DNA from: Muribaculaceae bacterium
GTDB taxonomy: Bacteria; Bacteroidota; Bacteroidia; Bacteroidales; Muribaculaceae
DNA: 40,848 nt
Assembly (NCBI GenBank): GCA_024400935.1
Contig: JAKSLZ010000020.1
Location: forward strand, 1-40,848
Reading direction: 5' to 3'
The translations under genes and the position numbers were made by a program. The notes beneath the pieces were generated by a model, which ran no database searches, was not told the origin of the DNA, and saw only the letters and a program-made list of their open reading frames with translations. Positions 34,853 to 40,848 of this stretch are shown piece by piece (position 1 is the first letter of the stretch; every line of letters starts with the position of its first letter).

Positions 34853-35836
34853 CTACCGTCCAGAGCTTGCGATGCTCTTAACTAATGCGATGTCTACATT
34901 CAGCGACTGTGCAATCATGCTGGGGTCACCACCGTTATCCAGTAAAAGTTTTATTGCAGTTTCAAGTTGAGCCTTTTGCTCAGCAATTTGTGCACACTGC
35001 TCGGCCAGTTGTGCGCCCTGTTCAGCCAGTTGTGCACCCTGTTCAGCGATTTGTGCCCCCTGTTCAGCCAGTTGCTTGTCACGCATTAATATCTCGGTGT
35101 CGCGCGTTTCTATAGCACTGAAATACTCGTCCTCAACGTTCATGTCATGGCGCAGCTGACGGTCGCTGGCGGCTTCTTTGAGGCGTCGCAAAATATATAG
35201 CATGTCGTCATTGCCCGCATAAGCTTCCTCGTCAATGGTAATAGTCTGGTGGTTGCGGTCTTTACGTGTTTGGTCAAACACATTGAGCAGTTGTTCCAGA
35301 CGGTTGTTTACACGGCCATGAAGACGTGGTATCTGCACAATGATGCTCTCATGCGTCAGGCTGTCGACAAATGGGTTGGGAATACCCACTGTCACTTCAT
35401 TGTCGTCATAGTCAACAGCCTTGCGCTTGACATAGAGAATCGGTTCTTCAATGTCTCCAACCTTGTGGCCCAACAGGTACACTGTAACCATGGGAATGGC
35501 GTGGCCTTGCTTGTCTTCTTTAATGATGTTCTCGGGGTTGGCATAGTGGGTGGCAAGATATTGACGGAATCGCAATGTCTCGGTTTCAAGCCATGTCTTT
35601 TGCAACTCGATGAGAATCAAGTGTGTATCGCCATTCTCCTCTTTGACGTAAGCACCAAAGTCAATCCTGAAGATGGAGAGGTCGTTGCGCGAACTGTTAG
35701 TGTATTCGTTGCGACGTTGTTCCACCGACACTACTTCCTTTTTGAGCAGTGCCGAAAGAATTGTGCGAGCGATGCGCTCGTCTTCCATAAGGTACTTGAA
35801 GACGATGTCATATATGGGGTTGGCTACTTGTATCAT
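34853..35836 (-). CDS. Rpn/PDDEXK-type nuclease (transposase-like) with heptad-repeat tail
   Basis: It starts IQVANPIYDIVFKYLMEDERIARTILSALL in the style of Rpn/YhgA-like and PDDEXK_2 family proteins. The nuclease core is FRIDFGAYV (Asp59) and HLILIELQKT (Glu77-x-Gln79), in the D...ExQ form common in this family. Residues 256-290 are five tandem heptads (LAEQGAQ, IAEQGAQ, LAEQGAQ, LAEQCAQ, IAEQKAQ), encoded by 21-bp DNA repeats. The end, PSMIAQSLNVDIALVKSIA, looks like a helix-turn-helix. Rpn proteins promote RecA-independent recombination in E. coli; whether this one does is unknown. It is monocistronic with its own promoter. Confidence 0.82.
   Translation of the reverse strand: MIQVANPIYDIVFKYLMEDERIARTILSALLKKEVVSVEQRRNEYTNSSRNDLSIFRIDFGAYVKEENGDTHLILIELQKTWLETETLRFRQYLATHYANPENIIKEDKQGHAIPMVTVYLLGHKVGDIEEPILYVKRKAVDYDDNEVTVGIPNPFVDSLTHESIIVQIPRLHGRVNNRLEQLLNVFDQTRKDRNHQTITIDEEAYAGNDDMLYILRRLKEAASDRQLRHDMNVEDEYFSAIETRDTEILMRDKQLAEQGAQIAEQGAQLAEQGAQLAEQCAQIAEQKAQLETAIKLLLDNGGDPSMIAQSLNVDIALVKSIASSGR
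34967..35071. repeat. Five 21-bp in-frame repeats encoding LAEQGAQ heptads
   Basis: Five tandem 21-bp units within the Rpn-like gene encode near-identical heptads with a hydrophobic residue at each first position, as in a coiled coil. Unit number could change by slippage without breaking the frame. Confidence 0.85.
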
Positions 35837-35965: not shown

Positions 35966-36721
35966 TCAAACGGCCCTCTGGACGATGCGTGAGTTGGGGG
36001 GCACGTCGTGGGTGAGCCAGATGTTACCGCCCACCACGGTGTCGTGGCCTATGGTGATGCGGCCCAGCACTGAGGTGTTAGAGTAGATGGTCACGTTGTC
36101 CTCGATGATGGGGTGTCGCGGAGCATCCACGGGGTTGCCGTTGCTGTCATGGATGATGTTCTTGGCACCCAGTGTCACGCCCTGGTAGAGCACCACATTG
36201 CTGCCAATGATGGTGGTGGCACCTATCACCACACCTGTGCCGTGGTCGATGCAGAAGTGGTCGCCTATGCTGGCACCGGGGTGGATGTCGATTCCGGTCT
36301 CGCTATGAGCCATCTCGGTGAGCATGCGCGGCAACAAAGGGATGCCCATCAACAGCAGGCAGTGGGCCACACGGTAGTGCAGCATCACTCTCACCAGCGG
36401 ATAGCAGTAAACCACCTCGGCGCGGCTCTCTACTGCAGGGTCGTTGCTCAGCACTGCGTCCACATCGGTGTGGAGCAGTCGTTTGATCTCGGGCATCTCG
36501 TCCAGGAACTTACACGCTATGCAGGATGCTTGCTCGCTGTCGTCGAGCACGGTCGAGAGCTGGTAGGTGAGCACGGCGCGCAGTTGTAGCTCTAGTGGCT
36601 CGGTGCTGGGAAAATGTTCGGGAAACACGATTGAGCGCACTATCTCAATCATCTTTTTTAATTCCTTGTGCTGCGGAACTGATGTGGTCATTGCGTTTGT
36701 GTTAAATGTTGTTTTAAGCAC
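35966..36721 (-). CDS. cysE: Serine O-acetyltransferase
   Basis: This enzyme makes O-acetylserine from serine and acetyl-CoA, the substrate of the neighbouring cysteine synthase. A helical N-terminal region (~12-135) precedes a left-handed beta-helix of hexapeptide repeats (IDIHPGASIGDHFCIDHGTG, VVIGATTIIGSNVVLYQGVTLG). The conserved catalytic residues are Asp145 and His147 (DIHP) and His160 (DHGTG). A loop KNIIHDSNGNPVDAPRHP precedes the last coils, and the C-terminus is short. An in-frame Met at 36691 is an alternative start. It is downstream of cysK on the same strand, separated by 102 bp holding two GCCGGC dyads, so it is probably in the cysK transcript and under the same cysteine attenuator. 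Confidence 0.93.
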   Translation of the reverse strand: MLKTTFNTNAMTTSVPQHKELKKMIEIVRSIVFPEHFPSTEPLELQLRAVLTYQLSTVLDDSEQASCIACKFLDEMPEIKRLLHTDVDAVLSNDPAVESRAEVVYCYPLVRVMLHYRVAHCLLLMGIPLLPRMLTEMAHSETGIDIHPGASIGDHFCIDHGTGVVIGATTIIGSNVVLYQGVTLGAKNIIHDSNGNPVDAPRHPIIEDNVTIYSNTSVLGRITIGHDTVVGGNIWLTHDVPPNSRIVQRAV

Positions 36722-36744: not shown

Positions 36745-36823
36745 TCTTATGGCCGGCTTGCCGGTGTTTTTATAGGGGGCAGCCCGTGCTTGATGTTTTA
36801 TAGCCGGCATGCCGGCGTTCTTA
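36745..36823 (-). promoter_or_regulatory. Two GCCGGC dyads between cysK and cysE
   Basis: The spacer holds GCCGGCATGCCGGC (a perfect 14-bp palindrome) and the related GCCGGCTTGCCGG ~45 bp further on, each beside an AT-rich stretch. They may form RNA hairpins that tune cysE expression or protect the cysK mRNA end. No long U-tract follows, so full termination is doubtful. Confidence 0.4.
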
Positions 36824-37729
36824 TTACAGGACTGAGAGGTAGCGCTCGCCGGTGTCGGGGAGCAGGGCGACGATGGTTTTGCCCTCGTTCTCGTCGAGGC
36901 TGGCAAGCTTCAATGCTGCAGCAAACGAGGCTCCGCTAGAGATGCCCACCAGCAGACCGTGCTTGCGCGAGAGCATGCGTGCAGCGTCAAATGCGTCTTC
37001 GCTTGCCATGGGCATAATCTCGTCGATTACACTTGCGTCATAAGTGTCAGGGACAAAGCCTGCGCCTATGCCCTGGATTTTGTGAGGACCGGGCTGACCT
37101 CCGCTCAATACGGGCGATGTAGAGGGCTCCACTGCCACGATCTTTACGGCAGGATTGTGAGCCTTGAGTGCACGGCCTGTGCCAGTGACTGTGCCACCGG
37201 TGCCCACACCGGCAACAAAGATGTCTACCTTGCCATCAGTGTCGTTCCATATCTCCTCACCGGTGGTGCGGGTGTGGACTGCGGGGTTAGCGGGGTTGAC
37301 AAACTGTCCCAGGATTACAGCTCCGGGGGTAGCGTCGCGCAGTTCCTGGGCACGTGCAATGGCACCCTTCATGCCCTGTGCGCCAGGGGTGAGCTCGAGC
37401 TCGGCGCCATAGGCTTTGAGCAGGTTGCGGCGTTCCACGCTCATGGTGTCGGGCATGGTGAGGATCACCTTATATCCTTTAACTGCTCCCACCCATGCCA
37501 GGCCCACGCCTGTGTTGCCGCTGGTGGGTTCAATGATTGTTGCACCGGGCTTGAGCACGCCTTTAGATTCGGCATCTTCGATCATCGCCAGCGCTATGCG
37601 GTCCTTGACGCTACCGCCGGGATTGAAAAATTCAACCTTGACAACCAGGCGGGCCTTGAGTCCGTCGATACCTGTAATCTCAACTAAAGGAGTGCGACCA
37701 ATGAGGTCAGTAATGCTCTTGTAAATCAT
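36824..37729 (-). CDS. cysK: Cysteine synthase A (O-acetylserine sulfhydrylase)
   Basis: This PLP enzyme forms cysteine from O-acetylserine and sulfide. The Schiff-base Lys42 is in [10 protein letters not shown], the substrate loop PTSGNTG is at 68-74, the phosphate-binding glycine loop is [13 protein letters not shown], and the PLP-ring contact is in [10 protein letters not shown]. The C-terminal [10 protein letters not shown] is the family's end motif. At 301 residues it is a normal CysK. Upstream lies a terminator preceded by a four-Cys leader peptide, which predicts transcription only when charged Cys-tRNA is scarce. cysE follows on the same strand. Confidence 0.96.
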
Positions 37730-37793
37730 AATAGTGTTAAGTTTTGAGCTGCTAGCGATAACCAGTGCAATATTTCAATTGATTACCCAAAAA

Positions 37794-37829
37794 ACAATGT
37801 CTACCACTGGAATCACTGGCAGACATTGT
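37794..37829 (-). terminator. Intrinsic terminator of the cysK attenuator
   Basis: The minus-strand RNA forms ACAATGTCT/AGACATTGT, then a 1x1 mismatch, then CCA/TGG closing a loop, followed by TTTTTTGGG. It lies about 58 nt after the leader stop codon and 65 nt before the cysK start, where an attenuator terminator should be. It also serves as the only terminator for readthrough from the gene ending at 37995. Confidence 0.85.
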
Positions 37830-37898
37830 GAATATTTATAAAAAAATTACTATATCTTTAAACGAAAGAATTATCACATAACGTCACTACACCAGTGA
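37813..37898 (-). promoter_or_regulatory. Predicted antiterminator of the cysK leader
   Basis: Leader segments UCACUGG (37898-37892) and GACGUU (37885-37880) can pair in register with CCAGUGA (37819-37813) and AAUGUC (37827-37822), the whole 5' arm of the terminator. This gives about 13 pairs with one G-U and an internal loop. A ribosome at the leader stop codon would mask the leader segment; a ribosome stalled at the Cys codons would leave it free. Folding was done by eye. Confidence 0.65.
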
Positions 37899-37946
37899 AA
37901 AATCACGAGTGCAACAACAACAATATGTGGTATAAATTCTTTTCAT
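37887..37946 (-). CDS. Poly-cysteine leader peptide of the cysK-cysE attenuator
   Basis: This 19-codon frame reads MKRIYTTYCCCCTRDFSLV and then TAG. Codons 9-12 are TGT TGT TGT TGC, four cysteines in a row, directly upstream of the cysteine synthase gene. The ATG is only 5 nt after a consensus -7 box, so the mRNA should start at or within a few bases of the ATG, making it leaderless or nearly so. Transcription then runs into an intrinsic terminator whose 5' arm is complementary to the end of this frame. The design is that of amino-acid attenuators such as trp and his. Leaderless poly-Cys small ORFs that act this way are known from mycobacteria; I do not know of one in Bacteroidetes. The peptide itself probably has no function. 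Confidence 0.8.
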   Translation of the reverse strand: MKRIYTTYCCCCTRDFSLV

Positions 37947-37951
37947 CGCTG

Positions 37952-37983
37952 CAAAATTATGTAATATTTTTGAATTGACCAAA
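37952..37983 (-). promoter_or_regulatory. Consensus promoter of the cysK leader and operon
   Basis: The minus strand reads TTTG (37983-37980), exactly 20 bp, TAATTTTG (37959-37952), then CAGCG and the leader ATG. It is among the best matches in the window to the Bacteroidetes consensus, and it lies just 11 bp past the stop codon of the preceding gene. Confidence 0.85.
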
Positions 37984-37994
37984 TGTTTTATGCA

Positions 37995-39191
37995 TTATTT
38001 TACATAAACAGTGCGCAAGCCCACGCTGTAGTGGCGCAGCGAGTCATATTTGCCGCCACCCAGATACTCCTGAGCGAAGCCATAATCGTGAGCTACGAGG
38101 TTGCCCTCTTCGTCCTTGGTGACAACCCAGGCAAGCAGCGTGCGGCGTGCGATTGTGCCACCCTCGCGCTTCACTGTCCATGAGTCGTTCTCAACAACAA
38201 CCTTGATGACACCTTTGAACTTAGCCTTAGCCACCTTGAGCACCTGTGCGTTCATTGACTTGTTGAGGGCACCGGGCTTAAGAGTCTGCTTTGATGCCTC
38301 GATCTCGGCTTTGCGCTTTGCTTCTTTCTCGGCCTTAGCCTTTGCTGCTCTTTCCTGTGAAGCCTTCATGTCGGCCTTGACCTCCTCATAGGTCATGTAG
38401 GGGTTGGCATTGGGATACTTGGCTTTGTAAGCCTCGTCCATCTGGTCATAGAGTTTGCGCAGTTCCTTGGTCTGCTTCTCGATGGCCTCGTCGTCAGTAT
38501 AACGGTCAGTGCAGAATGCCAGGTAACGTGTAGCTGCACCGTTGCTTGTGTAGTATTGCTTAGCATTCTTCTTGCCCTTCTTGGCCTTGTCAACATACCA
38601 CTTGAGGGCTGCTGCCAAGTATGCATTGTTGTTGCCGTTGAAATCTTCGGCCTTGGGGTAGCCTGCATAGAGAATTTCGCGTGTAGCCTTTGCCACTCCG
38701 TTCATGCGCTCCTGTGCAGTGCTCCATGAATGCCAGCGAGCCACATCCTTAGAGTTGTCATTAGCAATCATGTTGAATACTTTGCCCATCTGCTCGCCTT
38801 TGTCAGAGCACAGCCACTCCACGTCTTTTTTCTTGTTAGCCATCTCCTGGAGAGTAGCCCAGTACTCAAAGGCATCATACAGCTCGTCGATGTCCTTGCA
38901 TGCCTCGGGGTCTGGGGCGTTGAGCTGGGTTTTGTATTCAACAGCCATGTTAAGCTGCTTCTTGGCTTCATTAGTAGCAGTGTTCACAGCCTTGTCAACC
39001 GCGTTGTCGATTGTGCGGTCAACTTTGTTTTCAACTTGATTCTTTGCGCTTTGAACCTTGTTGTCTACGGCTTGCTTGGCTTTGTTTTTAATCTTGTTGC
39101 CTAAGTTTCCAAATTGTGCGTCAGCACTGAAACTAAAGGACACTACGGCAATTGCTGCAAGTGTGACCTTGATGATGTTGTTAAATTTCAT
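37995..39191 (-). CDS. Secreted coiled-coil protein of unknown function
   Basis: The signal peptide MKFNNIIKVTLAAIAVVSFS ends near SADA-Q. A highly charged amphipathic region (~27-85, NKIKNKAKQAVDNKVQSAKN) follows, resembling LEA-like or coiled-coil repeats. A helical middle (~90-270) contains YDAFEYWATLQEMANKKKDVEWL. A Lys/Ala/Glu-rich helix (~285-310) leads to a beta-rich C-terminal domain (VAKAKFKGVIKVVVENDSW, GTIARRTLLAWVVTKDEEG). No family is recognised. Periplasmic location is expected. It has its own strong promoter, and the next promoter downstream is that of cysK. Confidence 0.75.
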   Translation of the reverse strand: MKFNNIIKVTLAAIAVVSFSFSADAQFGNLGNKIKNKAKQAVDNKVQSAKNQVENKVDRTIDNAVDKAVNTATNEAKKQLNMAVEYKTQLNAPDPEACKDIDELYDAFEYWATLQEMANKKKDVEWLCSDKGEQMGKVFNMIANDNSKDVARWHSWSTAQERMNGVAKATREILYAGYPKAEDFNGNNNAYLAAALKWYVDKAKKGKKNAKQYYTSNGAATRYLAFCTDRYTDDEAIEKQTKELRKLYDQMDEAYKAKYPNANPYMTYEEVKADMKASQERAAKAKAEKEAKRKAEIEASKQTLKPGALNKSMNAQVLKVAKAKFKGVIKVVVENDSWTVKREGGTIARRTLLAWVVTKDEEGNLVAHDYGFAQEYLGGGKYDSLRHYSVGLRTVYVK

Positions 39192-40646: not shown

Positions 40647-40663
40647 TTTTTTTTGATTTTTAA

Positions 40664-40848
40664 GAGCGCTTTGCTTTTCAGAGCGGTCGCTGCGCTCCCT
40701 TCTCAGAGCGCTTTGCTTTTCGGAGCGGTCGCCGTTGGCTCCCTTTTCGGAACGCTTCGCTTATCGGAGCGGTCGCTGTCGCTCCCTTCTCAGAGCGCTT
40801 CGCTTTTCAGAGCGGTCGCTGTCGCTCCCTTCTCAGAGCGCTTCGCTT
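40664..40848. repeat. Tandem array of ~43-bp GC-rich repeats, running off the window
   Basis: Units begin at about 40664, 40706, 40750, 40793 and 40836 (periods 42-44 bp). Each has the layout AGAGCGCTTCGCTTTTC, then AGAGCGGTCGCTGTCGCTCC, then CTTCTC. Each unit contains small self-complementary parts (AGCGCTTCGCT, GAGCGGTCGCTGTCGCTC). The period is not a multiple of three, so coding is unlikely, and there are no unique spacers. The array starts just upstream of the hpt promoter and continues beyond the end of the window. Confidence 0.85.

Follow-up and report, generated by a model that had tools for sequence, protein, structure and literature searches.

A predicted cysteine-codon attenuator with an intrinsic terminator ahead of cysK in a Muribaculaceae bacterium and related Bacteroidota

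Can a run of cysteine codons in a very short reading frame let a passing ribosome decide whether a cysteine synthase gene is transcribed? The question is raised by a locus in the window (the whole 40,848-nt stretch of DNA that was analysed), where an initial annotation had proposed that a near-leaderless poly-cysteine leader peptide and an attenuator control cysK-cysE. Classical attenuators, such as those of trp and his, combine a leader peptide with RNA segments in a 1:2 / 2:3 / 3:4 layout. On the basis of sequence comparison and folding calculations, we conclude that the locus very probably encodes ribosome-mediated transcription attenuation tuned to cysteine before cysK-cysE. All of the attenuator parts were read directly on the minus strand, in the interval from a 398-codon gene (37995-39191) to cysK; they are listed here with the two genes that follow.

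37952..37983, minus strand: Bacteroidota-type promoter, with TTTG at 37983-37980, a 20-nt spacer and TAATTTTG at 37959-37952
37887..37946, minus strand: predicted leader peptide frame MKRIYTTYCCCCTRDFSLV, 19 codons, with its ATG 5 nt after the -7 box and its stop ending at 37887
37911..37922, minus strand: four tandem Cys codons, TGT TGT TGT TGC, by direct reading
37903..37911, minus strand: segment 1, CACTCGTGA, pairing with the start of segment 2 (8 of 9 positions in the window and in locus L026, 7 in locus L004)
37874..37898, minus strand: segment 2, the 5' half of the antiterminator, starting 12 nt past the last Cys codon and including the leader stop
37813..37831, minus strand: segment 3, common to the antiterminator (2:3) and the terminator (3:4) in pairing calculations
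37789..37829, minus strand: intrinsic terminator, a 36-nt hairpin (37829-37794) running into T6 (37794-37789), -22.2 kcal/mol
36824..37729, minus strand: cysK, cysteine synthase A (TIGR01139, 440.1 bits, cut-off 350.95)
35966..36721, minus strand: cysE-like serine acetyltransferase gene 3' of cysK, with an uncertain start codon (above the Pfam cut-offs for SATase_N and Hexapep)

Direct reading of the minus strand bore out the annotated promoter (TTTG, 20 nt, TAATTTTG), and the ATG 5 nt past the -7 box and the four tandem Cys codons were both found where the annotation had placed them. From 5' to 3' the sequence runs TTTG, 20 nt, TAATTTTG, CAGCG and the leader ATG at 37946, and the leader stop is 57 nt from the hairpin and 157 nt from the cysK ATG. 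We judged the box against TAnnTTTG, given as the -7 consensus of Flavobacterium psychrophilum (PMC9723704). The cysteine synthase expected after the terminator is present, with its ATG at 37729 and a TIGR01139 score above the cut-off. As for the proposed cysK-cysE pair, cysK is firm, and the second gene is serine-acetyltransferase-like by Pfam but falls below the NCBIfam cut-offs (cysE, 151.8 against 210.65; EpsC, 148.9 against 150). We infer that the two are co-transcribed. A cysE-like relative also lies 3' of cysK in six other loci with a leader (L004, L113, L114, L115, L116 and L033), and cysE does so in 5 of 11 loci that have none (L006-L009 and L117); thus, the cysK-cysE linkage is not special to the leader. 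The gap between the two genes in the window holds two GCCGGC palindromes (36752-36765 and 36803-36816), which are terminator-like on the plus strand.

The RNA of this region is strongly structured. Positions 37780-37945 fold at -48.7 kcal/mol (z -4.86), a value that none of 200 shuffles equalled. The annotated intrinsic terminator with T6 was confirmed as the hairpin 37829-37794 before cysK, which has 13 continuous pairs and 2 more ahead of its T tract. The antiterminator duplex reaches -21.2 kcal/mol (p 0.004 against shuffles), and the two pairings named by the annotation, UCACUGG/CCAGUGA and GACGUU/AAUGUC, both fall inside this one duplex. Its further proposal that CACUCGUGA can pair with UCACUGGUG also agrees with calculation, as 8 of the 9 positions form standard pairs. 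The 1:2 hairpin of the window has p 0.060.

A poly-Cys short frame by itself is not rare, and the combination of parts is. Searching the window's own genome (2.84 Mb, 77% complete), we found 68 matches to four tandem Cys codons, with overlaps counted separately, against 41 for the reversed pattern, and 11 short ATG frames (at most 60 codons) contain a four-Cys run. Only that of the window has TAnnTTTG within 50 nt upstream of its ATG, and no second poly-Cys leader with a promoter box was found in this genome. Thus, rarity attaches to the combination and not to the frame.

We then asked whether the frame recurs at cysK elsewhere. A set of 101 genomes of the genus, 19 with a CysK match at 1e-40, gave 20 loci readable upstream once the truncated locus L026 was added. 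A short ATG frame with at least three tandem Cys codons precedes cysK at 9 of these 20 loci (the window included) against a mean of 0.05 in dinucleotide shuffles, and one with at least four does so at 7, against 0 in shuffles; the runner-up residue for tandem runs was Leu, at 3 loci. The other 11 of the 20 loci lack a poly-Cys short frame. Querying the 101 genomes with the leader DNA returned matches of about 200 nt beyond the window only in G031 (at the place of L026) and G004 (at the place of L004), and most remaining hits in the 72 matching genomes cover the promoter part alone (query about 1-60). On a quick CysK tree of 42 rows, with 17 of 39 inner branches open and L026 and L124 left out, the leader label requires 4 changes, of which the well-supported branches force at least 2, whether gains or losses. 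CysK itself is patchily distributed in this genus (g1), matching at 1e-40 in 6 of the 48 most complete genomes; thus, cysteine synthesis by CysK appears patchy there, because most genomes (all but 19 of the 101) are without a close CysK.

Beyond the genus, the order (CysK at 1e-60 in 193 of 344 genomes) yielded 103 cysK loci from other genera, none of which carries a poly-Cys short frame; these come from three samplings (16, 27 and 60) with some genomes counted twice, and 24 of the 60 loci in the largest gave no gene match, little of the gene being present. At two loci, L179 and L202, three tandem TGY codons do occur within 450 nt, but outside any short ATG frame. Across the phylum, CysK was found in 310 of 345 genomes, and three tandem Cys codons occur at none of the best 27 new loci, a result that says little on the phylum because all 27 come from one family (f136). 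A scan of genome contigs (80 loci, 76 with sufficient upstream DNA) found poly-Cys frames at 3: L033, whose record bears the title Candidatus Cryptobacteroides onthequi, and two loci whose record titles name Bacillota (L071 and L077). The comparison across Bacteroidales that the annotation had called for thus came out in part as it anticipated: Cys codons, antiterminator and terminator recur in related genomes, but not in the sampled loci of other genera. The attenuator appears to be an element of a small group and not a Bacteroidales-wide trait, because 0 of 103 other-genus loci carry the Cys frame.

Seven of the nine Cys-frame loci of the genus and one further record have a terminator hairpin and, past the Cys codons, a segment able to pair with its 5' arm (the window, L026, L004, L113, L114, L115, L116 and L033). 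We tested the layout on 10 leaders, these 8 from Bacteroidota and the 2 from records titled Bacillota, leaving out L118 and L119. In all 10, a hairpin is followed by 7 bases of which at least 4 are T, and its 5' arm pairs with the post-Cys segment (p 0.002-0.042 each against shuffles). The duplex starts 8-14 nt past the last Cys codon in 9 of the 10, and 24 nt past it in L077. Among the eight Bacteroidota leaders, the leader stop ends 21-42 nt past the last Cys codon, and the 2:3 duplex has p 0.002-0.028 singly and 5e-8 combined over six loci, this and the other combined p values given here being optimistic because L003 and L004 are related. The 1:2 pairing varies much more (p 0.008-0.69; combined 0.027 over six). 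The full 1:2 / 2:3 / 3:4 layout assigned by the annotation therefore holds in relatives for 2:3 and 3:4, with 1:2 well supported in some leaders only.

These leaders are mostly unlike in sequence, apart from a trio (the window, L026 and L004) and a near-identical pair (L114 and L115). The longest unchanged blocks of the trio are the start context, the Cys-codon block, segment 2 and the hairpin; both the start context TTTGCrGCGATGAAAA and the 22-nt block CCACATATTGTTGTTGTTGCAC, which contains the Cys codons, are unchanged. The terminator of the trio has 15 pairs, with 97.8% of 45 cells paired and two pairs changed on both sides, a covariation that 228 of 500 shuffles matched or exceeded and that has no power with three sequences. 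In the antiterminator, 91.2% of 57 cells are paired and 0 pairs are changed on both sides. T tracts are interrupted by other bases in L026 and L004.

The near-leaderless start is narrower in range than the rest of the layout. The window, L026 and L004 each place the ATG 5 nt past TAnnTTTG, so the predicted start applies to this trio but does not extend to the other leaders: the gap from box to ATG is 26 nt in L114 and L115, 30 in L116, 17 in L118 and 18 in L119, and L113 and L033 have no exact TAnnTTTG box within 80 nt. The position of the -7 box in the window suggests that transcription would begin at, or next to, the leader ATG. Leaderless mRNAs are present in Bacteroidota and are few, amounting to 5.5% in F. 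psychrophilum (PMC9723704), and 5' UTRs shorter than 10 nt make up about 3.7% in Bacteroides thetaiotaomicron (PMC7366714).

We propose that RNA polymerase would start at or beside the leader ATG and that a ribosome would translate the short frame. Scarcity of charged tRNA-Cys would stall the ribosome at the Cys codons, where it would mask segment 1 and leave segment 2 able to pair with segment 3 before segment 4 exists; no terminator would form, and cysK-cysE would be transcribed. When cysteine is ample, the ribosome would reach the stop in or near segment 2 and cover that segment, allowing 3:4 to form and transcription to end.

To calculate this switch, the bases under the ribosome were removed (a 12-nt footprint, which is an assumption) from a nascent RNA ending at segment 3. 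In all eight Bacteroidota leaders, placing the ribosome on the last Cys codon gives 14.2-20.4 expected 2:3 pairs, and moving it to the stop lowers this to 1.7-9.2. The comparison supports the attenuation reading of the annotation. Against shuffles of the stretch from the Cys codons to the terminator, combined p values over six loci are 5e-6 for stalled pairing and 3e-5 for the switch. Taken singly, stalled pairing has p <0.05 in 5 of 7 loci and the switch in 3 of 7; the window alone gives p 0.007 and p 0.093, respectively. In the finished RNA at equilibrium, the terminator wins in 7 of the 8 even with a stalled ribosome, and L033 is near a tie; thus, the predicted switch must be kinetic, with an antiterminator that acts in time, as in the trp attenuator. 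When the calculation omits the ribosome, the 1:2 hairpin prevails in five of the eight (the window, L026, L114, L115 and L116); it does not win in L004, L113 and L033, and default termination without translation is therefore not general.

Four further poly-Cys leaders differ from these eight in organism or in form. L118 and L119 come from the same genus, and each has a leader of 32 residues ending CCCLC (MINYDSHINTLIERAANAGSGSFVVCMCCCLC and a relative 53% identical to it), with its ATG 364 and 342 nt, respectively, upstream of the cysK match start. They share a promoter box and a long-range stem GCGGCG...CGCCGC, belong to a separate cysK branch and have no cysE match in their loci. With the 32-residue L118 leader as query, clear matches were found in 2 of the 101 genus genomes (G062 and G090); three weak hits (E 0.008-0.07) look like noise and were set aside. 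L118 and L119 are possibly a second Cys-codon switch that acts differently. In L071 and L077, whose record titles name Phascolarctobacterium and Clostridiales, CCC short frames lie about 90-225 nt upstream of cysK with Shine-Dalgarno-like sites by eye, together with a terminator and a 2:3 pairing (p 0.010 and 0.042), and these frames are possible cysteine attenuators in Bacillota.

Could the hairpin instead be nothing but the terminator of the upstream 398-codon gene, with the poly-Cys frame beside it by coincidence? That gene matches nothing in Pfam or NCBIfam at 0.001. It ends at 37995, leaving 11 nt before the promoter in which no separate terminator was read, and tandem Cys frames do arise by chance in this genome. 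Among the 101 genus genomes it has close relatives (at least 70%) in four others (G031, G063, G004 and G061) and distant ones (about 31%) in two. On contig C326 of G004 (locus L338), a relative stands apart from cysK and is followed, about 70 nt past its stop, by a hairpin that resembles the window terminator (81% over 47 nt), the only other match that strong in the 101 genomes beyond the L026 and L004 leaders. This finding makes the plain-terminator explanation more serious, but it leaves unexplained the Cys codons and antiterminator, which are found at cysK loci only. The C326 hairpin has no Cys codons and no good antiterminator partner; the segment-2 partner CCAGUGA is missing from its 5' arm, and its best upstream partner reaches just -7.0 kcal/mol. 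The same genome, moreover, has its own leader and hairpin at cysK (L004), where the 398-codon gene does not adjoin. The gene precedes the leader in G031 and G063, as in the window. It is the neighbour of L026 and L113 and is absent beside L004 (about 490 nt seen), L114, L115, L116 and L033; thus, the leader goes with cysK. In G061, the relative is followed by a different hairpin, with no Cys run within 500 nt. As the Cys run, pairing segment and terminator also recur jointly at cysK in unlike sequences, we consider coincidence very unlikely. The C326 terminator and the attenuator hairpin do appear to share descent, in either direction, which is compatible with attenuation: the attenuator hairpin may descend from the terminator of the 398-codon gene, and, because it is related in sequence to the G004 terminator after that gene, the window hairpin may terminate the upstream gene's transcripts too.

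The remaining alternatives keep the frame or the RNA structure and change its role. Leaderless poly-Cys short frames are known in mycobacteria, where work by Canestrari in 2020 reportedly describes them as cysteine-responsive, and the near-leaderless start predicted from the box in the window resembles theirs. Poly-Cys leaders had been predicted in 2005 for the cys operon of Mycobacterium and P. acnes and for cbs of B. longum, and like the present leaders they have a short frame with consecutive Cys codons ahead of cysteine genes; the report describes no conserved hairpin able to terminate and proposes Rho (PMC1262725). A control of this kind, with the ribosome affecting Rho or translation of the following gene instead of an intrinsic terminator, would also suit L118 and L119, where no T-tailed hairpin was seen by eye. 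For the window we regard it as quite unlikely, since the leader stop is 157 nt away from the cysK ATG and the window and seven other Bacteroidota leaders have a terminator in register with an antiterminator, a feature absent from the actinobacterial leaders as that report describes them (PMC1262725). A functional small peptide rich in Cys as the product of the frame, for instance one binding metal or thiols, would fit the four to five tandem Cys and the three more further on in L026. The residues outside the Cys run and the end of the frame vary, however (MKRIYTTYCCCCTRDFSLV, MNYSISFYCCCCTSFPLVWLNHAL and MIRFTHITCCCCHHCHDD), and a one-base length difference puts the window and L026 in different frames past the Cys run, making such a function highly improbable. 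A metabolite riboswitch or T-box in control, with the frame incidental, would account for the strong structure of the leader RNA; we hold it to be vanishingly improbable, as 37600-38100 gave no match at the gathering score of any Rfam family; the best of five weak ones scored 24.3 bits, where the gathering score is 63.

Attenuation by a stalled ribosome, our preferred reading, places the locus close to the trp and his systems. It shares with them a frame rich in end-product codons (four Cys before cysK, in a predicted frame), an intrinsic terminator between the frame and the first gene (in the window and seven other leaders), the 1:2 / 2:3 / 3:4 layout with an antiterminator that is freed by stalling and masked at the stop by calculation, and a stop in or near segment 2. 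It differs in that it would sense cysteine, in its Bacteroidota host, in the ATG 5 nt after the -7 box and in a 1:2 hairpin that is not strong in every member. Within the phylum, F. psychrophilum offers strong clues to leader-peptide attenuation upstream of amino-acid operons, and the sole mention of cysteine in the main text of that study concerns a protease (PMC9723704); B. thetaiotaomicron has short frames reminiscent of leader peptides (PMC7366714). Among the matches listed in the literature, none is a cysteine attenuator with an intrinsic terminator in Bacteroidota, and an earlier mention is possible. The device is thus of a known type in a new combination, joining cysteine, an intrinsic terminator, Bacteroidota and, in one sublineage, a near-leaderless start.

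If this reading is correct, cysteine would join the residues sensed by hairpin-type leader-peptide attenuation, and such a switch would be placed in Bacteroidota. The near-absent 5' UTR predicted here also poses the question of how ribosomes would load fast enough to match RNA polymerase. Unlike sequences with one layout, together with the likely reuse of a neighbour's terminator, would suggest that such switches can be rebuilt within one genus. More tentatively, and with somewhat less than even confidence, we suggest that this genus built Cys-codon control of cysK more than once from parts at hand: a terminator type, near-leaderless in one sublineage, that took the 3' terminator of a neighbour, and a second type in L118 and L119. 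Were that so, then, with the two leaders in records titled Bacillota, cysteine attenuation would be cheap and repeatedly evolved, and not an actinobacterial speciality.

Two other features were observed towards the ends of the window. Beyond the cysE-like gene, 34853-35836 holds a 327-codon gene whose resemblance to a PD-(D/E)XK transposase family is weak and below cut-off; repeats of the AEQGAQL type form a run close to its C-terminus. At the opposite end, a tandem repeat of CAGAGCGGTCGCTGCGCTCCCTTCT and its variants occupies about 40660-40848 and runs past the end of the window.
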